IMG/VR virus record: IMGVR_UViG_3300033153_014609
Span: 1-25,745 of that record
DNA: 25,745 bases
Reading direction: 5' to 3' (one strand)
DNA from: a virus
Notes under the pieces: generated by a model
Databases searched by the model: none
Seen by the model: only the letters and a program-made list of their open reading frames with translations
Told to the model about the DNA's origin: nothing
Translations under genes and position numbers: made by a program
Shown here: positions 6,162 through 17,570 of the stretch, in pieces
Numbering within the stretch: the first letter of the stretch is position 1
Layout of the letters: the number at the start of each line of letters is the position of its first letter

Positions 6162-6776
6162 ATGAACTGGACTATATTTTGCCCAGGGCCGTCATTAAAC
6201 CAACTGAAAAAAGATAAGGTTCTTGCCTTAGTGACGAACGCCGGGTACCAAGCGGAGTATTCAATAGCTGTTAATGGAGCTATTTTAAACGGATTCCCAG
6301 TTAAGCACTGGGTTATGCTTGACTACAAAGTATTTTTATCATGCTTTAACTCATTTTCACCAGTAGGGTTTGAAGCATTAGCCAGGGGTACAGGTCTTTG
6401 GATCCCTAATAGGCAACTTATGCAAGTGGATAAAGCTTTCCCTCTTGCAGGGGAGTTCCTTAGGCGATTTGCATTTAAGACCTGGCCAAAAGGTCAATTA
6501 GGAGGACTTATGCCTTTTGCTAAAGACTTCCTATGGGATGATTATTCGTTTTTTTGTGCTTTAGCCATAGCGGTTATGTATAAAGCAAAAACAATAAAGA
6601 TATATGGTGCTGATATGACTGGGGAGGGTTATTTTAAAAAGGGCCTGGAAAACAAACGCACTTCACACAACACAAGGCGATGGACAGATGAGAAGTATAA
6701 ATTTGATTGTATAGTCAGCGAGTGCGATAAACACGGCATAGAAATAACAAGAGAGTTTTTCGAGGGCCAGGGATGA
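6162..6776 (+). CDS. MptE-like/sialyltransferase-like GPS-motif protein of the sugar cassette
   Basis: This 204-residue protein opens with a strand and the nucleotide-binding type loop CPGPSL (residues 7-12). It continues with YSIAVNGAILNGFPVKHWVMLD and ends its core with KTIKIYGADMTGEGYF (about 145-162). The GPS...NGA...GADM pattern is that of the 6-hydroxymethylpterin pyrophosphokinase MptE-like / DUF115 / sialyltransferase-like superfamily. In phages these proteins sit beside glycosyltransferases and probably act on nucleotide sugars rather than pterins. Its stop overlaps the next start (ATGA), so it is the first gene of a coupled cassette. The exact reaction is unknown. Confidence 0.7.
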   Translation: MNWTIFCPGPSLNQLKKDKVLALVTNAGYQAEYSIAVNGAILNGFPVKHWVMLDYKVFLSCFNSFSPVGFEALARGTGLWIPNRQLMQVDKAFPLAGEFLRRFAFKTWPKGQLGGLMPFAKDFLWDDYSFFCALAIAVMYKAKTIKIYGADMTGEGYFKKGLENKRTSHNTRRWTDEKYKFDCIVSECDKHGIEITREFFEGQG

Positions 6777-8197
6777 TACAGACTTCTATAATTATACCTG
6801 TTCATAATAACTGGAGCTGCATATCGGATTGTATAGAAAGCATTACAATAAATACAAATAACTATGAGCTTATTTTTATTGTTGACAGCAGCGTAATGTT
6901 TTCTGAAAGCCTTAAAAAGTATGGGGAAGTAATTTACGGCAAGCATCCTTTTGTGTTTAGCGAGCGCATTAATTTAGGCATTAAAGAAGCAGAAGGCGAA
7001 TATATCTGCCTTTTAAATGATGACGTAATGCCGTATAAAGATTGGCTTGTTAAGACAATAGAAGCTAATAAACAATTAGGACCTGGCTTAGTAGGGGTAA
7101 GGTGTCAAGAGCATGGTTGCAGTAATGTAGATGCTCATGGCAAAGGATCCGCATGCTATACAAACTACACAATTAATATGTTTGCTATGCTTATCCCGCG
7201 CAGGGTATTAGATATCGTTGGTTTACTTGATGAGCGGTTTATTTATTATGGCGGCGACGATGACGATTATTGTTTAAGAGCCTTAAGGCACGGCTTTAAA
7301 TTGATAATTTCAAGTGGGTTTGTTTATCATAAAAAAAGCACAGCATTTAATAGCGGCATGATCCGTGATTTACTTCCGAAAACGCGTAAAGTTTTTATAG
7401 ATAAGTGGACAGCGGACATGCCTTGTCCTCCAAAGCAAAGCTGGGTGGATGATGTAAGAAAACGCTTAATTCAGCCATCAATTTCAGTTTTAATGCCTAC
7501 CAGGGGTCACGAGAAGTATATCAAATCTGCTGTAATGAGCGTATTTGCTCAATCCTATAAAAATATTCAATTAATAGTTGGTGTTGACGGCAAGGATCAG
7601 CCGGAGACATTTAAAATACTTAAAAAAATCTATGATGATAATTTTGCCCACAGAAACCCCCGCTTTTTGGTTTTAAAAACTAACGATACTGTCGGCAGCT
7701 GTGATATGCGAAATCGATGTTTTGAATATGCCTATGGTGAATTTATAGCTCTTATGGACTCAGATGATATTATGCATCCGGATAGATTAAAAGATGAGTT
7801 AGAAGCCATGACTCCGGATACAGACATAATCTATTCAGCATATATTGAAGAGGATAAAAATGGCAAACAGAAGCCGCTTAAATTATACCCTTTTGACAAG
7901 GAGATGGTCTTAAACTTTCGGGTTAATAAAAATATGCTTTTAAACTTTCAAGTCAACATAGCTGGTGGAACGTTTTTAATGCGTAAGTACTGTTTAGAAA
8001 AAGAAAAGTTTGACGAAAAATATGCCCGGGCGTTTGATTTTGAGTATGCATTACGGACACATAACAAGTTTAAATATAGATACCTAGATAAGCCGACAAT
8101 AGTTTATCGTAGGCACAGTGGTGAACATTTAAGCGGTAATTTAATAAGCAGTAGGCAACACAAAGAGTTAATTGGGATATATAAAAATGAGAGATAA
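6773..8197 (+). CDS. Two-domain family-2 glycosyltransferase
   Basis: This 474-residue protein consists of two GT-A fold GT2 domains. The first (about residues 1-225) starts TSIIIPVHNNW and has the metal-binding LNDD at 81-84, then a GGDDDDYCLRA acceptor-side motif. The second (about 237-474) starts SISVLMPTRGHEKYIKSAV, has GVDGKD and the metal site MDSDD, and ends with IVYRRHSGEH. Both domains keep their acidic motifs, so both could be active, as in bifunctional polymer synthases that add two sugars in turn. There is no membrane segment, so it is probably cytoplasmic. It lies between an MptE-like protein and a methyltransferase, and overlaps both. Confidence 0.88.
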   Translation: MIQTSIIIPVHNNWSCISDCIESITINTNNYELIFIVDSSVMFSESLKKYGEVIYGKHPFVFSERINLGIKEAEGEYICLLNDDVMPYKDWLVKTIEANKQLGPGLVGVRCQEHGCSNVDAHGKGSACYTNYTINMFAMLIPRRVLDIVGLLDERFIYYGGDDDDYCLRALRHGFKLIISSGFVYHKKSTAFNSGMIRDLLPKTRKVFIDKWTADMPCPPKQSWVDDVRKRLIQPSISVLMPTRGHEKYIKSAVMSVFAQSYKNIQLIVGVDGKDQPETFKILKKIYDDNFAHRNPRFLVLKTNDTVGSCDMRNRCFEYAYGEFIALMDSDDIMHPDRLKDELEAMTPDTDIIYSAYIEEDKNGKQKPLKLYPFDKEMVLNFRVNKNMLLNFQVNIAGGTFLMRKYCLEKEKFDEKYARAFDFEYALRTHNKFKYRYLDKPTIVYRRHSGEHLSGNLISSRQHKELIGIYKNER

Positions 8198-8663
8198 ATC
8201 TTTACGTTCAGGCGAACGCCAGGTAGCGCAAACACTGCAAGGTGTCGAAGAGTGGCACAGGTGGCGCTACCTGGAAACATTAAAGTATATTGAAGGCAAA
8301 GATGTTTTGGATGTAGGTTGTGGTGTTGGATATGGTTCTTATATCATGGCTGAAAACGCAAAAAGTGTTTTTGGATTGGATGATAGCCAAGAAGCAATTG
8401 ATCAGGCATGGGAATATTTTGTCGGGGGCAACATAAATTACTATTGTTGCGATTTTTTAAAAGTTAAAATTGAAGCCCTTTCTACACAAAACGCTTTAGT
8501 AGCTTTTGAGGTTATAGAGCATATTCAAGACACAGAGCCAGTCTTTAAGAAGTTTAAAGAGCTTGATCCAGAGCTTATAATTATTTCTACTCCCCACAGA
8601 ATAACTCCCATGGGCGGTAATGAATTTCATTTTGGGTTAGAGAAGGTATTAAATTCTGGATGA
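8187..8663 (+). CDS. SAM-dependent methyltransferase, C-terminus apparently truncated
   Basis: This 158-residue class I methyltransferase has motif I VLDVGCGVGYGS (about 40-51), acidic motif II GLDDSQ, and a post-motif region FEVIEHIQDTEPVFKKF and IIISTPHR typical of small-molecule or sugar methyltransferases. Most relatives run on for another 15-60 residues. Here the chain ends at LEKVLNSG with TGA (8661-8663). Reading through that TGA as Trp would continue W-K-T-A-A-F-G-R-G-N in the same frame as the next gene. The ATG at 8187 overlaps the glycosyltransferase end by 11 bases, with only a weak ribosome site (TTGGGAT). It probably methylates a sugar made by this cassette. Activity is uncertain. 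Confidence 0.8.
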   Translation: MRDKSLRSGERQVAQTLQGVEEWHRWRYLETLKYIEGKDVLDVGCGVGYGSYIMAENAKSVFGLDDSQEAIDQAWEYFVGGNINYYCCDFLKVKIEALSTQNALVAFEVIEHIQDTEPVFKKFKELDPELIIISTPHRITPMGGNEFHFGLEKVLNSG

Positions 8664-8690
8664 AAAACTGCAGCATTTGGTAGAGGTAAC

Positions 8691-9683
8691 ATGAACATTA
8701 TTTTCGTAGGAATCTTTTATTATGGCGGTCCTGTAAGGCATCTATATAGGATATTTGAGATCTATAAAGCGCTGGCAAAGGTGTTTAAGGCCGTAGGAAT
8801 ATCTGTCAAGTACTTCACAAGACAGAATGAGATTCTACCTCTACAAAATACTCTTTTAGAAGATGAGTTTAATAATGACCTTAAAAACTGCGATTTGCTT
8901 TTTATGTGGAACGGAAACCTCGGCCAAGAGAAACAGATATCGGAACGCTGTAAAACATTAGGAATACCGGTTTACTATATGGAGCTGGGGTGGTTGCCAC
9001 AATGTGGAACATTTTATTTTGATAGGAAGGGTGTAAATTATAGCAGCAGTTTGCTTGATTGGAAGCACCAAGAGTTAACTACCGAACAAAAGCTGGAAAC
9101 CAGAGCAAGGATCACATTCTATCTTAATAACCACGCGAGAGTTACCGGCACAAGAGAACTCCGGGATTTTGTTTTTGTGCCCTTTCAGGTCGAAAATGAT
9201 AGCCAAATTATAAGATTTTCGTCACACATTAAAAAAATGCAACAATTGGTAGATTATGTATGCTCTTTTGTGGATGGCACTATTATATTTAAAACTCATC
9301 CGAAAGACAATATCCGCGGAATTAAATATCCTAAAAGATGTAAGTTGTATACAAGCGGTACAACGCACGACTTTTTAGAGAAATGTAAATACGTAGTTAC
9401 TATAAATTCAACAGTAGGAATAGAGGCTCTTGTTTACAATAAACCAGTCATAACTATTGGTAACGCTTTTTATGAAGGAAGAGGAATAACGCATAAAGCG
9501 ACTGATGACGAATCTTTTAAGCAGGCCATTTCCAATATCGAACAAAATGGGTTTGCAACAGGCGTTGTGGAGGCATTTTTACATTATCTTTTTAATAGGC
9601 AATGGTACAGCGCGGATCTTGATAATCCTGAAAAGGTTTTACAGCTAATCGAAAACATAACAGAGAGAAGAGCAGATGAGTAG
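8691..9683 (+). CDS. KpsC/KpsS-like capsule polysaccharide (Kdo-type) transferase
   Basis: This 330-residue protein has the hallmarks of the capsule polysaccharide synthesis family (PF05159-like, the retaining beta-Kdo transferases KpsC and KpsS). It shows an N-terminal Rossmann half with LLFMWNGNLGQE and GIPVYYMELGWLP, then FKTHPKDN, then CKYVVTINSTVGIEALVYNKPVITIGNAFY. The last two match the conserved HP and T-INSTVG-EAL segments that bind the nucleotide sugar. In bacteria these enzymes add Kdo to lipid at the start of capsule synthesis. Here the acceptor is unknown. AGAGG precedes the ATG. Its frame is the same as that of the upstream methyltransferase, and it overlaps the next gene by 8 bases. 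Confidence 0.8.
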   Translation: MNIIFVGIFYYGGPVRHLYRIFEIYKALAKVFKAVGISVKYFTRQNEILPLQNTLLEDEFNNDLKNCDLLFMWNGNLGQEKQISERCKTLGIPVYYMELGWLPQCGTFYFDRKGVNYSSSLLDWKHQELTTEQKLETRARITFYLNNHARVTGTRELRDFVFVPFQVENDSQIIRFSSHIKKMQQLVDYVCSFVDGTIIFKTHPKDNIRGIKYPKRCKLYTSGTTHDFLEKCKYVVTINSTVGIEALVYNKPVITIGNAFYEGRGITHKATDDESFKQAISNIEQNGFATGVVEAFLHYLFNRQWYSADLDNPEKVLQLIENITERRADE

Positions 9684-10440
9684 AATTGCTATAATCTATA
9701 CTACGTTTTTAAGAGAGCAGTTAGCCGAAAGGACCGTAAAATCCATTATTGATAATTGGTGTGACAACTTTACGCTTTTAATAGCTGATCAACGTTTTCA
9801 GTATAAACACAGCTGGTGGAATGAAGCTGTTGAAATGCGCCACGCTGAATATGCAGCCCTTCCTTTTGATTGCGGAGTTTCGGCAGCCCGTAATTTTTTA
9901 GTAAAAAGAGCCTGGCAGCGCCAAATAAAGTACTGCCTTGTAACAGCTGATAGTATAGAGTTTGTACCAGAAACTGTACAGAAAATAGATCGTGCTGAGC
10001 AATTCTTAAAAACTCATCGTCAGGTAGGTATTATAGGATTTGATTTAAAGGATAGGGTGCCTTGGGAGTTTTATATGGATATAAACGATAGAGCTTTTGT
10101 CTTAACAAAAAATCCAGCTATGTACACAGATCCAGCGACAGGCTTGACTATAAAGGAATGTGATATCTGCCGCCAGTTTTTTCTTGCTAAAACAGAAGCC
10201 CTGCTACAGGTTCAGTGGGACGATGCTCTTAAGACTGCTGATCACGAAGACTTCTTTTGGCGATATAAACAAGCAGGATATAGTGTTCGTTGGACAGCCG
10301 ACATTGTGGGCAACTATATTGATTATAAACCTGCAGAGTATCTTAAATATAGAAAAAGAATGTATAGCGAGTTCCGGAAGATCTTACAGAAAAAATATAA
10401 TTTAACAGGATGGGTGGAATATAGAGGGGGAGTGGGATGA
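9676..10440 (+). CDS. GT-A glycosyltransferase (GalNAc-transferase-like)
   Basis: This 254-residue protein has the layout of a GT-A glycosyltransferase. The N-terminal strand IAIIYTTFLREQLAERTVKSI and LLIADQRF lead to DCGVSAARNFLVKRA (nucleotide-sugar region) and KYCLVTADSIEFVP, where TADS holds the acidic residue expected of a metal site. KECDICRQFFLAKTEAL and the catalytic-region motif TADHEDFFWRYKQAG follow. The (D/E)HEDFFWR pattern recalls beta-1,4-GalNAc transferases of eukaryotic and bacterial origin. It overlaps the upstream gene by 8 bases and the next by four, so it belongs to the same translationally coupled cassette. The donor sugar and target are not determinable. Confidence 0.75.
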   Translation: MSRIAIIYTTFLREQLAERTVKSIIDNWCDNFTLLIADQRFQYKHSWWNEAVEMRHAEYAALPFDCGVSAARNFLVKRAWQRQIKYCLVTADSIEFVPETVQKIDRAEQFLKTHRQVGIIGFDLKDRVPWEFYMDINDRAFVLTKNPAMYTDPATGLTIKECDICRQFFLAKTEALLQVQWDDALKTADHEDFFWRYKQAGYSVRWTADIVGNYIDYKPAEYLKYRKRMYSEFRKILQKKYNLTGWVEYRGGVG

Positions 10441-11726: not shown

Positions 11727-12188
11727 ATGACTGGATTTTTTGTAAATATAGTCAAATTGATAGCGGTTTTTGCCGTATTTGGCACTATGTTTATAAGCTG
11801 TGAGCCAGCGCGAGCAAAAGGCATAGCATCCTGGTATAGCATGCAAAGCTTAAAAGATGAAAAAACTTACGAAAGAACTAAAGGGGTGATGGCAAATGGA
11901 GATTTGTTTGATGATAAGGCGCTTACTTGTGCTTGCTATTATTACCCTCTCGGCGCCAATCTTATTGTGCGAAATCTATCTAATAATAAAACTGTTCTGG
12001 TACGTGTTACGGACAGGGGTCCTGCGGAGGAATTTATTAAACATGGAAGGATCATTGACCTTAGTCGGGAAGCCTTTAGGCGACTTGATGATCTTGACAG
12101 GGGCCTTATCGAGGTGGAAATAACAAAACAAAGGGAGGGGGCATGGCTATCGAAAGCAAGATTAAGAAGATTATCGCAGAGGAGCTAG
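11727..12188 (+). CDS. Secreted RlpA-like double-psi beta-barrel protein
   Basis: This 153-residue protein starts with a signal sequence (hydrophobic residues about 4-24, likely cleavage after ARA at 30; an FISC lipobox-like site is a less likely alternative). An RlpA-like double-psi barrel follows: GIASWYS (32-38), [31 protein letters not shown] (55-85), [11 protein letters not shown] (90-100), [15 protein letters not shown]. In Pseudomonas RlpA the lytic transglycosylase uses Glu, His and Asp. Here the Asp of DRGP (Asp96) is kept. The Glu position reads Asp59 and the His position reads Cys70. It may cut or bind peptidoglycan, fitting a lysis or entry function. The ribosome site is poor (AAGGA too close). 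The 3' end overlaps the acyl carrier protein gene by 46 bases. Confidence 0.8.
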
Positions 12189-12382
12189 GTTTTAAAGAAA
12201 ACGAGATAACCGATGACAAGACTATAGTTTCTGATTTAGGCGCTGATAGCCTTGACATAGTAGAGCTAACCATGGCTATTGAGGAAAACTTTGTTATTGA
12301 GGTGCCGGATGAGGACCTAGAAAAATTAGAAACCGTCAAAGACGTTATCGATTATGTAAAAAAAGCAGAAGGGAATGAATAA
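12143..12382 (+). CDS. acpP: Acyl carrier protein
   Basis: This 79-residue, acidic four-helix protein is unmistakably an acyl carrier protein. It has [17 protein letters not shown], then [34 protein letters not shown], then [14 protein letters not shown]. The phosphopantetheine attachment serine is Ser36 in the intact GADSLD motif, and the length matches bacterial AcpP (about 78). AGGGAGGGGGC precedes the ATG. It starts inside the end of the RlpA-like gene. ACPs carry acyl chains for fatty acid, lipid A and polyketide synthesis, and also donate acyl groups to some modified proteins. No fatty acid synthesis gene is nearby, so this copy must work with host enzymes or serve a virus-specific acylation. 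Confidence 0.93.
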
Positions 12383-12871: not shown

Positions 12872-13045
12872 ATGTTAACAATAGCTGTTGGGGTTGCGGT
12901 ATATCTATGGGGCAAAAACGGGATATTTGCCAGAGTCTCATGGGTGATATTATTCATAGCATTATTTTTTGACTTTACACTGATTAATAATCTTATAATC
13001 CAATATTTTAGAATAAAAACCTTACGAAAACTGGAGCAGAGATGA
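12872..13045 (+). CDS. Small membrane protein, possible holin-like
   Basis: This 57-residue frame starts after AGGAG with 6-base spacing. It has a short first hydrophobic stretch (LTIAVGVAVYLW, residues 2-13) and a long second one (WVILFIALFFDFTLINNLIIQYF, about 24-46), then a basic tail RIKTLRKLEQR. Two hydrophobic segments plus a charged C-terminal tail match class II holins and other phage membrane peptides. It lies downstream of the RlpA-like gene, so a role in lysis is possible but unproven. The stop overlaps the start of the methyltransferase gene (ATGA). Confidence 0.6.
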   Translation: MLTIAVGVAVYLWGKNGIFARVSWVILFIALFFDFTLINNLIIQYFRIKTLRKLEQR

Positions 13046-14403
13046 AGATTAATATTAAGCCTGAAATTAAATCATTGTGGCTAAAAGATATTAAGTTATG
13101 GAAGGATAACCCGCGAAAAATTAAAGAGGAAGCGCTGACTGGTTTAAGAAGCAGCCTTAAGCAGTTTGGATATGTAGATCTTTTAGTGGTAAACAAGCGT
13201 AATAAGGAATTGATTGCCGGCCACCAAAGATATACGGTTTTACAAAAAGAAGGCTTTAAAAGAGTTGTTTGTATAGTGGTAGATGTGGACAAGGTTCAGC
13301 AAGAAGCAATGAGTATATCGCTTAACAACCAGCAGATCGCCGGGACATGGACAGAAGCATTAACCCCTATTTTGGAAAGATTGCGTAATGAGATACCTAA
13401 TGGGTATATAGATCTTAGGCTCGATGAGTTAAGAGAAGAAGTATCTGATTTTGAGATTGAGAGCATGGGTGCCGGCAAAACTCTACCAGATGATATTCCT
13501 AAGGTCCCTAAAAAAGCTATCACAAAACCCGGGGATATGTGGGCGTTGGGTAAGCACAGATTAATGTGCGGTGATAGCACAAAAGAAGAAGATGTTAATA
13601 AGCTTATGAATGGCCAGAAAGCCAGTCTTTTTGCTACTGATCCGCCGTATATGGTTAATTATACGGGCGACGATAGACCTACTGGGGGCAAAGATTGGTC
13701 TGATGTTTATCATGAAGTGGATATTAAGGATCCTAAAAAGTTTATAGAGGATTTTTATACAATGGGGTTAAAGCACATTAAGAAAAATACACCCTTATAT
13801 TTATGGCATGCATCAAGACACAGAACAATGATTGAGGAAGTATGCAATAAGTTTAATATTTTAATTCATCAGCAGATAATATGGGTTAAGCCCTGCACCG
13901 TATTAACTTATTCTATTTATTCATGGCGCCACGAACCTTGCCTGCTTATGTGGCAAAAAGGCAATAAACCGCCTTTTAGAGTCTCTAAGACATCAATAGG
14001 AACCGTGTGGACCATGGACTATTTAAAAAAGGGGGATCCATCAAAACCGGAATATTATACAGATGTTTGGGAGTTGGATTGGGAAGGCAAAAAGCGGAAC
14101 CCTGGAATTGAACATCCTACTGTAAAGCCTACGGAGGTGTTTGCTATCCCTATGCGGGTGCATACAAAACCCGGGGATATCTGCTATGAGCCTTTTAGCG
14201 GATCCGGTTCACAGATAATAGCAGCTGAACGCCTTAATAGGCGATGCTATGCTATGGAGCTTGAACCTATTTTTTGTGATGTTATAATACAAAGGTATAT
14301 AAATTTTGTTGGAAGTTCTGATAATGTATATTTATTAATAAGGAAAAAGAAATATTCTTATGAAAAAATGCAAAATATGCGAAAAGATTCTAAATCTAAA
14401 TAA
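13042..14403 (+). CDS. ParB-domain/DNA methyltransferase fusion protein
   Basis: This 453-residue protein joins an N-terminal ParB-like domain (about 10-100, with DNPRKIKEEALTGLRSSLKQFG and the ELIAGHQRYTVL motif) to a C-terminal amino-methyltransferase of the DNA N6-adenine or N4-cytosine group. The DPPY catalytic motif is at 200-203 (ATDPPYMVNY). The SAM motif FSGSGS lies near the C-terminus, so motif IV precedes motif I, as in the beta class. This fusion is a known architecture in phages and mobile elements, where it may protect phage DNA from host restriction or alter packaging and transcription. No cognate endonuclease is next to it, so an orphan methyltransferase is likely. The start overlaps the small membrane gene (ATGA). 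Confidence 0.88.
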   Translation: MKINIKPEIKSLWLKDIKLWKDNPRKIKEEALTGLRSSLKQFGYVDLLVVNKRNKELIAGHQRYTVLQKEGFKRVVCIVVDVDKVQQEAMSISLNNQQIAGTWTEALTPILERLRNEIPNGYIDLRLDELREEVSDFEIESMGAGKTLPDDIPKVPKKAITKPGDMWALGKHRLMCGDSTKEEDVNKLMNGQKASLFATDPPYMVNYTGDDRPTGGKDWSDVYHEVDIKDPKKFIEDFYTMGLKHIKKNTPLYLWHASRHRTMIEEVCNKFNILIHQQIIWVKPCTVLTYSIYSWRHEPCLLMWQKGNKPPFRVSKTSIGTVWTMDYLKKGDPSKPEYYTDVWELDWEGKKRNPGIEHPTVKPTEVFAIPMRVHTKPGDICYEPFSGSGSQIIAAERLNRRCYAMELEPIFCDVIIQRYINFVGSSDNVYLLIRKKKYSYEKMQNMRKDSKSK

Positions 14404-14887
14404 TTTTTATTTAGATAAAAGGGGTATTTACTCCTCACGATGCAAGAAGTGCCATTCTTTGCAGAAACATAAATGTATTGTTTGTAATAAAGCGTTTGTT
14501 GGACACATAAATAAGAAATTATGTTCTTTAAAGTGTAAACGCATATACCGTCCGCAGACATTTAAAAATTGTGTGCAATGTGGAAAAGGATTTGGTCCTG
14601 TTAATAAGTTGATGAGAAAGTTTTGTTCGCGAAAATGTAAAATAGAATTTCAGAAAACAGGATGCATTCAAAAACAATGTAATAAAGAAGCTAAAAGGGC
14701 ACAACGCAGAGTTGCATATGCTATACAGAAAGGAGTTCTTGTTCGCCCTAAAAAATGTTCAAATTGTGGAAAGAAAGTAAAAACAGAGGCGGCTCATTAT
14801 GATTATAAAAAACCACTACAGGTTAAATGGTTGTGCAGCAAATGTCATAATGAATGGGATAAAAAATATCCTAAAGGTGGAGTGTAA
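14360..14887 (+). CDS. Protein with four Cys4 zinc fingers, HNH-like C-terminus
   Basis: This 175-residue basic protein contains four tandem Cys4 modules: C4-C7-C28-C31, C39-C42-C55-C59, C71-C74-C89-C93 and C133-C136-C159-C162. The last one, CSNCGKKVKTEAAHYDYKKPLQVKWLCSKCHNEW, resembles a common phage HNH-like finger in which an H-x-DYxxPL segment lies between the knuckles. One of the histidines expected for a nuclease is not obvious, so catalytic activity is doubtful. It overlaps the methyltransferase end by 44 bases. The position just before the terminase genes is typical of HNH proteins that help DNA packaging in lambda-like phages. Confidence 0.75.
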   Translation: MKKCKICEKILNLNNFYLDKRGIYSSRCKKCHSLQKHKCIVCNKAFVGHINKKLCSLKCKRIYRPQTFKNCVQCGKGFGPVNKLMRKFCSRKCKIEFQKTGCIQKQCNKEAKRAQRRVAYAIQKGVLVRPKKCSNCGKKVKTEAAHYDYKKPLQVKWLCSKCHNEWDKKYPKGGV

Positions 14888-14905
14888 AAACAAATAAGTG
14901 AGGCA

Positions 14906-15031
14906 CGGTCGGGAGCTAAAAGCTCCTTCTCATATGATAAAGCCATATGAGCTTTGCGACCGCACCTGTAGATTGCAATACTATCTTACAGTCGTGCGGT
15001 TTTTATGTCAATGGCTTTATCGTGTGAGAGG
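14906..15031 (+). promoter_or_regulatory. Candidate structured leader RNA controlling the terminase genes
   Basis: Between the stop at 14887 and the terminase small-subunit ATG at 15038 the sequence can form exclusive structures. (1) A three-way junction: stem P1 CGGTCG (14906-14911) with CGACCG (14957-14962), enclosing hairpin A GGAGCT-AAA-AGCTCC (14912-14926) and hairpin B CTCATATG/CATATGAG (14929-14936 with 14944-14951). (2) An intrinsic terminator whose 5' arm begins at 14959, overlapping P1. (3) A long helix: 14926-14946 with 15011-15031, 21 consecutive pairs with three G-U, which covers the GAGAGG ribosome site and destroys hairpin B. These features match a regulatory leader (riboswitch- or protein-controlled), but a pac/cos packaging site or a degenerate mobile element is possible. 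Confidence 0.6.
14959..15004 (+). terminator. Intrinsic terminator upstream of the terminase genes
   Basis: The base stem ACCGCAC (14959-14965) pairs with GTGCGGT (14994-15000). An upper stem CTGTA-GAT pairs with ATC-TACAG around a 9-base loop, with a bulged T and a 2-base bulge. A run of five T follows (15000-15004). It ends the preceding operon or, if regulated, attenuates transcription into the terminase genes. Confidence 0.75.
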
Positions 15032-15037
15032 TAAATA

Positions 15038-15694
15038 ATGGCAAAAGGGAAGCAGAACCAAGCGGACAATAAAAACAAACCGGATTTGGTAGCTATGGCA
15101 CGCAAAAAAAGACATCTGTATTTAGTGCAGAAAATGCACCAGGACAAAGTGCTTACTCCTGTTGAGATAAGAGAGTTGGCCAAGTTTGAAGGTAAGCCGA
15201 TTGCTCCAGGTATTGTTCAAACACAAGAAGAAGTCGCCAAGGTTTTTGGAATCTCTGTTAGAACTGTTCAGTATTGGGCAAAAGATGGTATGCCAAAAAC
15301 TGAAAAAGGCACTTACGATCTTGTTGATATCCAAAGATGGCGGTTTGAAAAAAACAATACACGAAATTCTGGCAAAAATTCTGAAAAAGACGAATGGGAA
15401 ACGCGTTTAAAGAAAAGCAAAGCTAAATTAGCGGAGATAGAGCTTAAAAAGGCATTAGGGGAGGTTATCAGTACTGATGAAGTGGAAAAAGCGCGTATAG
15501 CGCGTATCATGGCTGTAAAAAGAGCACTTTTAGCCTTGCCGCGCGCAGTTGCACCTATTTTAGCGGGACTTGAAGCCCGGGACATAGAGATACTCTTAAC
15601 TTCACGTATACGCGAGATGATAGCTAAATTTGCAGGACAAAGGCAAGAAGATGAAAAGCCTAGAAGAAAAATCACACGTAAAAATACTCGATAA
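15038..15694 (+). CDS. Phage terminase small subunit (lambda Nu1-like)
   Basis: This 218-residue protein lies directly before a lambda-type terminase large subunit, which it overlaps by 44 bases. It has a basic N-terminus (MAKGKQNQADNKNKPDL), a helix-turn-helix (QEEVAKVFGISVRTVQYWAKDGMP, about 63-86) followed by a winged element (KGTYDLVDIQRWRF), and a long charged helical segment (about 118-150) for oligomerisation. The last region (VKRALLALPRAVAPILAGLEARDIEILLTSRI) is typical of terminase small subunits. It recognises the packaging site and loads the large subunit. The ATG has GAGAGG upstream. That site can be sequestered by the leader structure described separately. Confidence 0.85.
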   Translation: MAKGKQNQADNKNKPDLVAMARKKRHLYLVQKMHQDKVLTPVEIRELAKFEGKPIAPGIVQTQEEVAKVFGISVRTVQYWAKDGMPKTEKGTYDLVDIQRWRFEKNNTRNSGKNSEKDEWETRLKKSKAKLAEIELKKALGEVISTDEVEKARIARIMAVKRALLALPRAVAPILAGLEARDIEILLTSRIREMIAKFAGQRQEDEKPRRKITRKNTR

Positions 15695-17570
15695 AGAAAC
15701 ACAGATTTGGAGTATAGCCGAGAAAGAAGCATGGCGCTTGCCCCGCGAGATGACAGTAAGTGAGTGGGCAGATGAGAATAGGGTTTTAGATGCCAAGACA
15801 AGTGCTGAACCCGGACAATGGCGTACGGCGCGTACGCCTTACCTTAAAGGCATTATGGATTCTTTCAATGATCCGTTTATCGAGGAAATTACTATTATGG
15901 CTTCAACCCAGATAGGAAAGACGGAGTGCATGTATAACATGATAGGGTATGTTGTCGATCAGGATCCTGGACCGACTCTTTTAGTAATGCCAAGAGAACC
16001 TGATGCTAAAAGCGTATCCTATAATCGTATCAAGCCCATGATGAATCTTTGCCCCGCGTTAAGAAATCACATGACGCCACTTTCTGACGATATCACTAAG
16101 CTTGAATATAATCTGGACCGCATGATCTTACATTTTGCAGGATCTAATAGCCCAGCGGCATTGGCGCAAAGGCCTATACGATATTTGTTTTTTGATGAAA
16201 TTGATAAATATCCTAAGTTTTCTGGAAGAGAAGCGGATCCTATTAAGTTGGGCACAGAAAGGACCCGAACTTTTTGGAATCGTAAGATAATAAAGTGCTC
16301 AACCCCTACAACAGAAAAAGGGTATATATACCGTGAGTACAACAGGTCTGATAGATGCCGGTATTATATACCCTGTCCATATTGCGGAGCGTATCAGATT
16401 TTATTGTTCGGACAGATTAAGTGGCCAGAAAAAGAGCGCGACCCGGAAAAAATAAAAACAGAACGATTGGGATGGTATGAGTGCGAGGAGTGTAAAAAAC
16501 GCATTTTAGATAAACATAAATCAAAAATATTAGAGAAAGGGGTATGGGCGCCGGAAGGAACAGAAATTACACCGGAAGGAACCATAAAGGGCAACATTAC
16601 AAGAACTAAGCATAGAGGGTTTTGGTTGTCTGCTTTATATTCTCCATGGCTTAGCTTTAGTGAAATTGCAAGTGAGTTTTTGAAATCTAAGGATTACGTT
16701 GAACTTCTTATGAACTTTGTCAATTCCTGGTTGGCTGAGGTATGGAAAGATAAAGTTGTAGAGACACGCCCGGATAAACTTAAAAAGTTAGTACTTAATT
16801 ACGAAGAAGGAGTTTTAGCTCCTGGAGCCTTAGTTCTTACAGCTGGCATAGACGTGCAGCAGGATCACTTTTATATAGTTATTCGTGGATGGGGATATCG
16901 TGAAGAATCATGGCTTATTAGAGCTTGCAGAGTTGAATCATGGGAAGAAGTGATTGCTACTGTTTTTATGACAAAATATGCCAGAGGAAATGGCTCAGAC
17001 CCTACAGGAGTTATCCTGGCAAATATAGACTCAGGATATCGAACTAATGAGGTATACGAGGTATGCCGCAAATGGAGAGAAGTATCCAGGCCTACTAAAG
17101 GATATGATCAGCTCCCAGGTTTGCCTTATCGATTAAGTAATATTGACCGGGATTCCCGCGGGAAACCTATACCTGGGGGCCTTGGTCTTTGGCATCTTAA
17201 CACATCATACTATAAAGACAAAATAAATCGTATGGTACATGCAGAACCCGGGGACCCCGCAGAATGGCATCTTTTTAAAAATGTATCTGATGAATATTGT
17301 AAACAATTTTGCGCAGAACAAAAAATCCAAAAAAGAGATAAAAGGGGAAGGGTGTATGAGGAGTGGAAATTGACATCAGTTGGTGGCAAAAACCATTATT
17401 TAGATTGTGAAGTTGGCGCCTCTTCCGCTGCAGACATGATACGCGTTTCTGCTATGAGAGAAGAGGGCAGGCCTGAAGTGTACCAGCCGCGAACAGGGCG
17501 TAAATCTACAGACAAAGAAGGTAAAAATTGGATTCCGCGTAGGGGTGGAAGCTGGGTAAGACGTGACTGA
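15651..17570 (+). CDS. Phage terminase large subunit (lambda GpA family)
   Basis: This 639-residue protein has an ATPase domain with a deviant Walker A (STQIGKTE, about 85-92), Walker B LFFDEID (about 179-185), and a zinc-binding insert (CPYCGAYQ...CEECKKRI) characteristic of the lambda GpA family (PF05876). The C-terminal RNase H-like nuclease begins AGIDVQQDHFYIVIRGWGY. It cuts concatemeric DNA and pumps it into the prohead through the portal. The ATG at 15651 is chosen over the longer frame from 15630 (a TTG) because AAAGG lies upstream. The size and motif set match functional homologues, and no defect is visible. It overlaps the small subunit gene and the next zinc-ribbon gene. Confidence 0.95.
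   Translation: MKSLEEKSHVKILDKETQIWSIAEKEAWRLPREMTVSEWADENRVLDAKTSAEPGQWRTARTPYLKGIMDSFNDPFIEEITIMASTQIGKTECMYNMIGYVVDQDPGPTLLVMPREPDAKSVSYNRIKPMMNLCPALRNHMTPLSDDITKLEYNLDRMILHFAGSNSPAALAQRPIRYLFFDEIDKYPKFSGREADPIKLGTERTRTFWNRKIIKCSTPTTEKGYIYREYNRSDRCRYYIPCPYCGAYQILLFGQIKWPEKERDPEKIKTERLGWYECEECKKRILDKHKSKILEKGVWAPEGTEITPEGTIKGNITRTKHRGFWLSALYSPWLSFSEIASEFLKSKDYVELLMNFVNSWLAEVWKDKVVETRPDKLKKLVLNYEEGVLAPGALVLTAGIDVQQDHFYIVIRGWGYREESWLIRACRVESWEEVIATVFMTKYARGNGSDPTGVILANIDSGYRTNEVYEVCRKWREVSRPTKGYDQLPGLPYRLSNIDRDSRGKPIPGGLGLWHLNTSYYKDKINRMVHAEPGDPAEWHLFKNVSDEYCKQFCAEQKIQKRDKRGRVYEEWKLTSVGGKNHYLDCEVGASSAADMIRVSAMREEGRPEVYQPRTGRKSTDKEGKNWIPRRGGSWVRRD

Follow-up and report, generated by a model that had tools for sequence, protein, structure and literature searches.

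The terminase locus and the conserved element

The window, by which we mean the whole stretch of DNA analysed, is a linear virus record of 25.7 kb with the two terminase genes encoded on its plus strand:

15038-15694, plus strand: TerS, the terminase small subunit, of the Nu1-like winged-helix type (phrog_57, 7.7e-29; Phage_Nu1 below the curated cut-off)
15630-17570, plus strand: TerL, the terminase large subunit, of the GpA type (PF05876, 2e-71; PF20454, 1.6e-55)

To the left of the element described here lie a ParB-methyltransferase fusion and an HNH-like endonuclease. The former (13042-14403), an N6/N4 DNA methyltransferase with a fused ParB N-terminal domain, adjoins TerS in most relatives. 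The window also carries a phage-encoded stand-alone acyl carrier protein gene (12143-12382, PF00550), a match to the lipoprotein-precursor family phrog_7930 that is possibly RlpA-like (11727-12188) and, in its early half, a cluster of glycosyltransferase-, methyltransferase- and glycan-like genes (6162-10440, with PF00535 for 6773-8197). The nearest relatives of TerL are mostly found in Omnitrophota genomes, and for this reason the host of the phage is probably a member of Omnitrophota.

An earlier sequence-only reading had described a structured leader directly before TerS. All of the pairings that it listed are present and exceed chance, the plus strand folding at -59.4 kcal/mol against -36.1 kcal/mol in shuffles (z -6.0; 0 of 200 as low). 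Read directly on the plus strand of the window, the features are:

14906-14911 (CGGTCG) with 14957-14962 (CGACCG), plus-strand reading: P1
14912-14917 (GGAGCT) with 14921-14926 (AGCTCC), plus-strand reading: hairpin A
14929-14936 (CTCATATG) with 14944-14951 (CATATGAG), plus-strand reading: hairpin B
14959-15004, plus strand: terminator-like hairpin P4 with a T-run; its 5' arm overlaps P1 and its 3' arm lies inside the spacer of the small-RNA promoter listed below
14926-14946, plus strand: segment b, which pairs with r in plus-strand RNA or is one copy of an inverted DNA repeat
15011-15031, plus strand: segment r, the inverted complement of b, which includes the TerS ribosome site GAGAGG and abuts the -35 box of that promoter

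The arms of P4 are ACCGCAC (14959-14965) and GTGCGGT (14994-15000), followed by the T-run at 15000-15004, and b and r form 21 pairs in the window, three of them G-U.

Homologs were sought with TerL searches, DNA patterns and covariance models, the last as the sequence-only reading had suggested. The element is found at 15 distinct loci, comprising the window and 14 other phage or prophage loci (L003, L004, L114, L166, L186, L188, L194, L195, L197, L198, L199, L201, L205 and L212) from Omnitrophota genomes, one other bacterial bin and IMG/VR contigs. In 15/15 loci it lies directly upstream of TerS and ends at the TerS start, and its left neighbour differs by locus (a methyltransferase, an HNH gene, other ORFs or, at L212, a tRNA-like end). 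At L212 the bases adjoining the element on its left (1600-1620) resemble a tRNA gene's 3' end, though ARAGORN gave no call there. Searches by TerS alone and against reference phages returned no near relatives, which were found by TerL alignments, and a viral pattern scan for CATATG-type arms gave no match. Pattern or model matches at L189, L196, L202 and L214 were discarded as false, being GC-rich and having no TerS neighbour.

Rfam holds no family that matches at the gathering threshold, in keeping with the earlier statement that no known riboswitch class fits, and a relaxed threshold gave chance matches only. The element is a real, conserved and undescribed structured nucleic acid before TerS, as had been proposed from the window. 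It is also dispensable, because about 50 further relatives with the same terminase are without it; in these, TerS abuts the methyltransferase. On the TerL tree it is clustered yet patchy, with nine changes, and one clade, of 62 rows, lacks it. Mobile insertion was rejected as the source of this distribution, since all 15 copies sit at the same place before TerS despite the patchiness. At L128, a sister of L186, the sequence ends 92 nt before TerS, which leaves the absence of the element there unsure. The sister TerL sequences L003 and L029, one with the element and one without, form a natural pair for comparing the effects of its loss, and two prophages of Candidatus Velamenicoccus archaeovorus (L117 and L160) share the terminase and both lack the element.

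Strand of the core helices and the predicted small RNA

To assign P1, A and B to a strand we counted their base pairs in 14 loci with a scoring that treats G.T and A.C alike. On the plus strand the count is 258 Watson-Crick pairs, 40 A.C, 2 G.T and 3 other, and the 40 A.C mismatches are 40 G.U pairs on the minus strand. The skew has a binomial probability of 4e-10, a figure that overstates both the significance and the number of independent events because the loci are related. Its direction is the same in every locus, for the fifteenth (L212) by inspection. A plain DNA dyad predicts even transition mismatches and is rejected for these helices by the 40:2 count, and a plus-strand RNA would predict the opposite skew; the wobble pairs of these helices lie on the minus strand. 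Inverted repeats used as controls under a similar symmetric scoring show no skew (16 G.U to 15 A.C for r-b; 9:8 for P4), which makes mutation bias an unlikely cause. The same 16:15 count among homologs removes the G-U pairs of the 21-pair helix as the sign of selection on RNA that they had been taken for.

The minus strand is favoured by folding as well. P1 extends there to 11 pairs (14901-14911 with 14957-14967), an extension that the sequence-only reading had missed; two of these pairs are G-U on the minus strand but A.C or C.A mismatches on the plus strand, where the extended helix is 82% paired. Pairing in the minus-strand alignment reaches 98.6% of cells, a level seen in 0 of 500 shuffles, and includes 10 two-sided changes; slid controls give 26-48%. 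The minus RNA folds better than the plus RNA in 15/15 loci; for the minus strand of 14888-14976 in the window the energy is -35.1 kcal/mol (z -5.2; 0 of 200 shuffles as low). The sequence-only reading had noted neither this fold nor the minus promoter described below. Compensatory changes are thus found among the homologs, with the core helices on the strand opposite to the one first assumed.

The following features are assigned to the minus strand of the window:

15006-15011, minus strand: TTGACA, the -35 hexamer of the small-RNA promoter (12 of the 15 loci have exactly this sequence)
14983-14988, minus strand: -10 box TAAGAT, spacer 17 (TAAAAT-like in homologs)
14886-14976, minus strand: predicted small RNA (from promoter, fold, covariance model and U-rich tail)
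14957-14967, minus strand: P1 5' strand, AGGUGCGGUCG (from wobble count, minus alignment and fold)
14929-14951, minus strand: hairpin B, with an 8-bp stem and a 7-nt loop (loop length 7 in 14 of 14 aligned loci)
14912-14926, minus strand: hairpin A, which forms in every locus although its sequence and length vary
14901-14911, minus strand: P1 3' strand, CGACCGUGCCU (from wobble count, minus alignment and fold)

A sigma-70 promoter of the form TTGACA, 16-18 bp and TAAAAT-like hexamer is present on the minus strand in 15/15 loci, and the blocks (T)GTCAATG and YATTTTA that are conserved on the plus strand are its -35 and -10. The mean score is 10.36, compared with 7.93 +/- 0.18 for shuffled sequences and 7.86 for the plus strand, and the promoter ends 16-28 nt before P1 (14 loci). 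An independent promoter scan of the window found the same site (TTGACA-17-TAAGAT at 15011-14983); one such site is expected there by chance in 500 bases, and it is the conservation that constitutes the evidence. The predicted start is at about 14976, some 7 nt past the -10 box, and the predicted end falls in a U-rich stretch at about 14886-14898. Across loci the minus strand after P1 is T-rich (6.87 of 14 positions against 3.98 +/- 0.50; 0 of 2000), with a weak U-run in five of them (L003, L166, L186, L188 and L194). The covariance model matches the window at 14963-14905 (E 5.8e-12). At L212, a locus that the minus model found only later, the promoter, the fold and TerS are likewise all present.

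Strand-specific wobble pairs, the minus promoter and the fold together make it very probable, as judged from sequence, that a small RNA gene runs on the minus strand from about 14976 to 14886, divergent from TerS. The promoter at 15011-14983 would drive an RNA of about 90 nt with a short free 5' tail, the closing helix P1, hairpins B and A in a three-way junction, and a U-rich end. Its conserved stem sequences are CACAUG/CAUGUG and GCGG/CCGC. The riboswitch reading is rejected for the core on the strand-specific wobble counts: the helices that the sequence-only reading had taken for a leader aptamer are not maintained on the mRNA strand (40 A.C against 2 G.T), the conserved blocks are those of the minus promoter, and the metabolite sensing it had envisaged is not supported. 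What looks like a riboswitch leader would be mainly an RNA gene of the opposite strand, and this implies that the strand of a predicted structure can be read from wobble asymmetry across homologs.

The b-r match and the terminator-like hairpin

The proposed pairing of hairpin B with the ribosome-site region of TerS is supported by covariation within genomes, as r matches b better within than between genomes (0 of 20000 permutations), with a duplex energy of -23.8 kcal/mol within and -16.4 kcal/mol between them. Taken alone, the covariation of the hairpin B loop with r is not significant (about 0.05). The within-genome match holds for either strand, which makes the nature of b-r ambiguous: it may be an RNA pairing in the plus strand, a repeat in DNA (a TerS site of the cosB kind, for example), or a resemblance between two sequences of the same sense. 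For P4, too, the arms match more closely within genomes (35 of 20000 permutations). At minimum free energy the plus leader of most loci folds with b-r, and that of many with P4. The terminator that shares the 3' strand of P1, another claim made from the window, recurs with compensatory changes but in only about half of the loci, the stem being present in about 9 of 15 and the T-run in 8. Its conservation may be partly due to the minus promoter, because the two use the same DNA.

These observations bear on an attenuator or riboswitch-like terminase leader on the plus strand that senses a ligand or a protein, the minus promoter being incidental. Such a leader would account for the covarying P4 that shares a strand with P1, and for a covarying b-r pairing that covers the TerS ribosome site. 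We nevertheless regard it as very unlikely, because P1, A and B are broken on the plus strand by the 40 A.C mismatches that are G.U on the minus strand, P1 of the plus strand is mismatched in most loci, P4 with its T-run is missing in about half of them, and a near-consensus minus promoter in 15/15 loci is left unexplained.

The segments r and b are inverted, lie 64-75 nt apart, and are matched within each genome without wobble bias, next to a TerS of the Nu1-like winged-helix kind. They could on these grounds be putative TerS-binding DNA sites resembling cosB, with the small RNA gene overlapping a packaging site; in lambda-like cosB, R2 and R3 have opposite orientations, and the TerS of N15 contains an inverted copy (PMC4669245). 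The contigs compared here are prophages or internal fragments. This account, which we consider unlikely, explains neither the strand-specific wobble nor the promoter. Moreover, relatives lacking the element have no common inverted repeat at the TerS start, so that r and b are at any rate not a packaging site that this terminase uses throughout. No further copies of hairpin B, as would be looked for in a repeated operator, turned up elsewhere in the window or among the relatives that lack the element.

Predicted role and comparison with known systems

The small RNA gene is predicted opposite the 5' region of TerS in 15/15 loci. We think this explanation, taken as a whole, reasonably probable. 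The role that seems most likely for the RNA, cis-antisense control of transcripts entering TerS and TerL from the left, is put forward as a tentative assignment. Plus-strand transcripts from the left would cross the element, and by default their leader could form the P4 terminator and hold the ribosome site of TerS in pairing with b. Because its sequence is complementary to b, to P1 and to P4's entire 5' arm, the small RNA would pair with these transcripts; a complete duplex would leave neither P4 nor b-r able to form, and terminase would be made. Alternatively, partial pairing or cutting of the duplex by RNase III could lead to repression. The anatomy slightly favours activation as the predicted sign, because the coverage of b, P1 and the 5' arm of P4 means that complete pairing would favour terminase expression. 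Against a cis-antisense role stands the retention of P4 with its T-run in only about half of the loci.

The stem sequences are more conserved than a pure cis-antisense RNA needs, which hints at additional binding of the RNA or DNA by a protein, possibly TerS, or at a target in trans. An RNA working in trans would titrate a protein or pair with another phage or host RNA, with B and r alike through binding the same factor, and r does resemble hairpin B of the small RNA in the same sense. By inspection r forms no matching hairpin in most loci, however, and adjacency to TerS in 15/15 loci is not needed by a trans RNA; we hold this reading, too, to be improbable. We give very little credence to the most far-reaching one, in which the RNA would itself take part in DNA packaging by a lambda-type (GpA) terminase, as a working component or a co-factor, in some lineages only and unrelated to the phi29 packaging RNA. 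Less extreme is a natural antisense RNA that would activate its own operon by disrupting an intrinsic terminator and, at the same time, exposing a ribosome site. The element adds a phage RNA family, undescribed and strongly conserved, that is linked to packaging genes in phages of Omnitrophota, a phylum with almost no phage genetics; if it does control terminase, the commitment to package DNA would be under an RNA switch.

The packaging RNA of phi29 is likewise a small three-way-junction RNA linked to packaging genes. Here the terminase is of the GpA type and the RNA is dispensable in relatives, and the many same-terminase relatives without it argue against a phi29-like requirement by the packaging motor. 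The phi29 family had no match in the Rfam scans, and complementary loops of its kind were not seen in the small RNA by inspection. Lambda-like cosB (PMC4669245) shares inverted repeats beside a Nu1-like TerS, matched within the genome; it differs in that cos has no promoter or strand-specific RNA pairing, and in that the element is absent from many relatives.

The closest counterparts are the cis-antisense RNAs of phages, taken up below, and the antisense attenuators of pT181 and pIP501. In the latter two, as predicted here, the antisense RNA spans a leader containing a terminator and alternative pairings. The small RNA predicted here differs in also covering the 5' arm of the terminator and the anti-ribosome-site segment, which makes activation possible, and the terminator is kept in about half of the loci. 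Synthetic small transcription activating RNAs share the principle that an antisense RNA directed against an intrinsic terminator at its 5' arm would open the hairpin; they are engineered, and activation here is a prediction only. The two natural systems are named as cases of antisense-controlled transcriptional attenuation (PMC5415839).

A search of the available literature combining antisense RNA with terminase small subunit returned nothing relevant, which is no proof of absence, and the main text of a review of phage antisense RNAs does not mention terminase (PMC12197685). The cis-encoded antisense RNAs of phages in that review include lambda OOP (77 nt, anti-cII), lambda aQ and P22 sar (68/69 nt). 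Like them, the predicted RNA is short and opposite or complementary to the transcript of a phage gene; unlike them, it is predicted here from sequence, and its three-way-junction fold is conserved in divergent phages, before the terminase.
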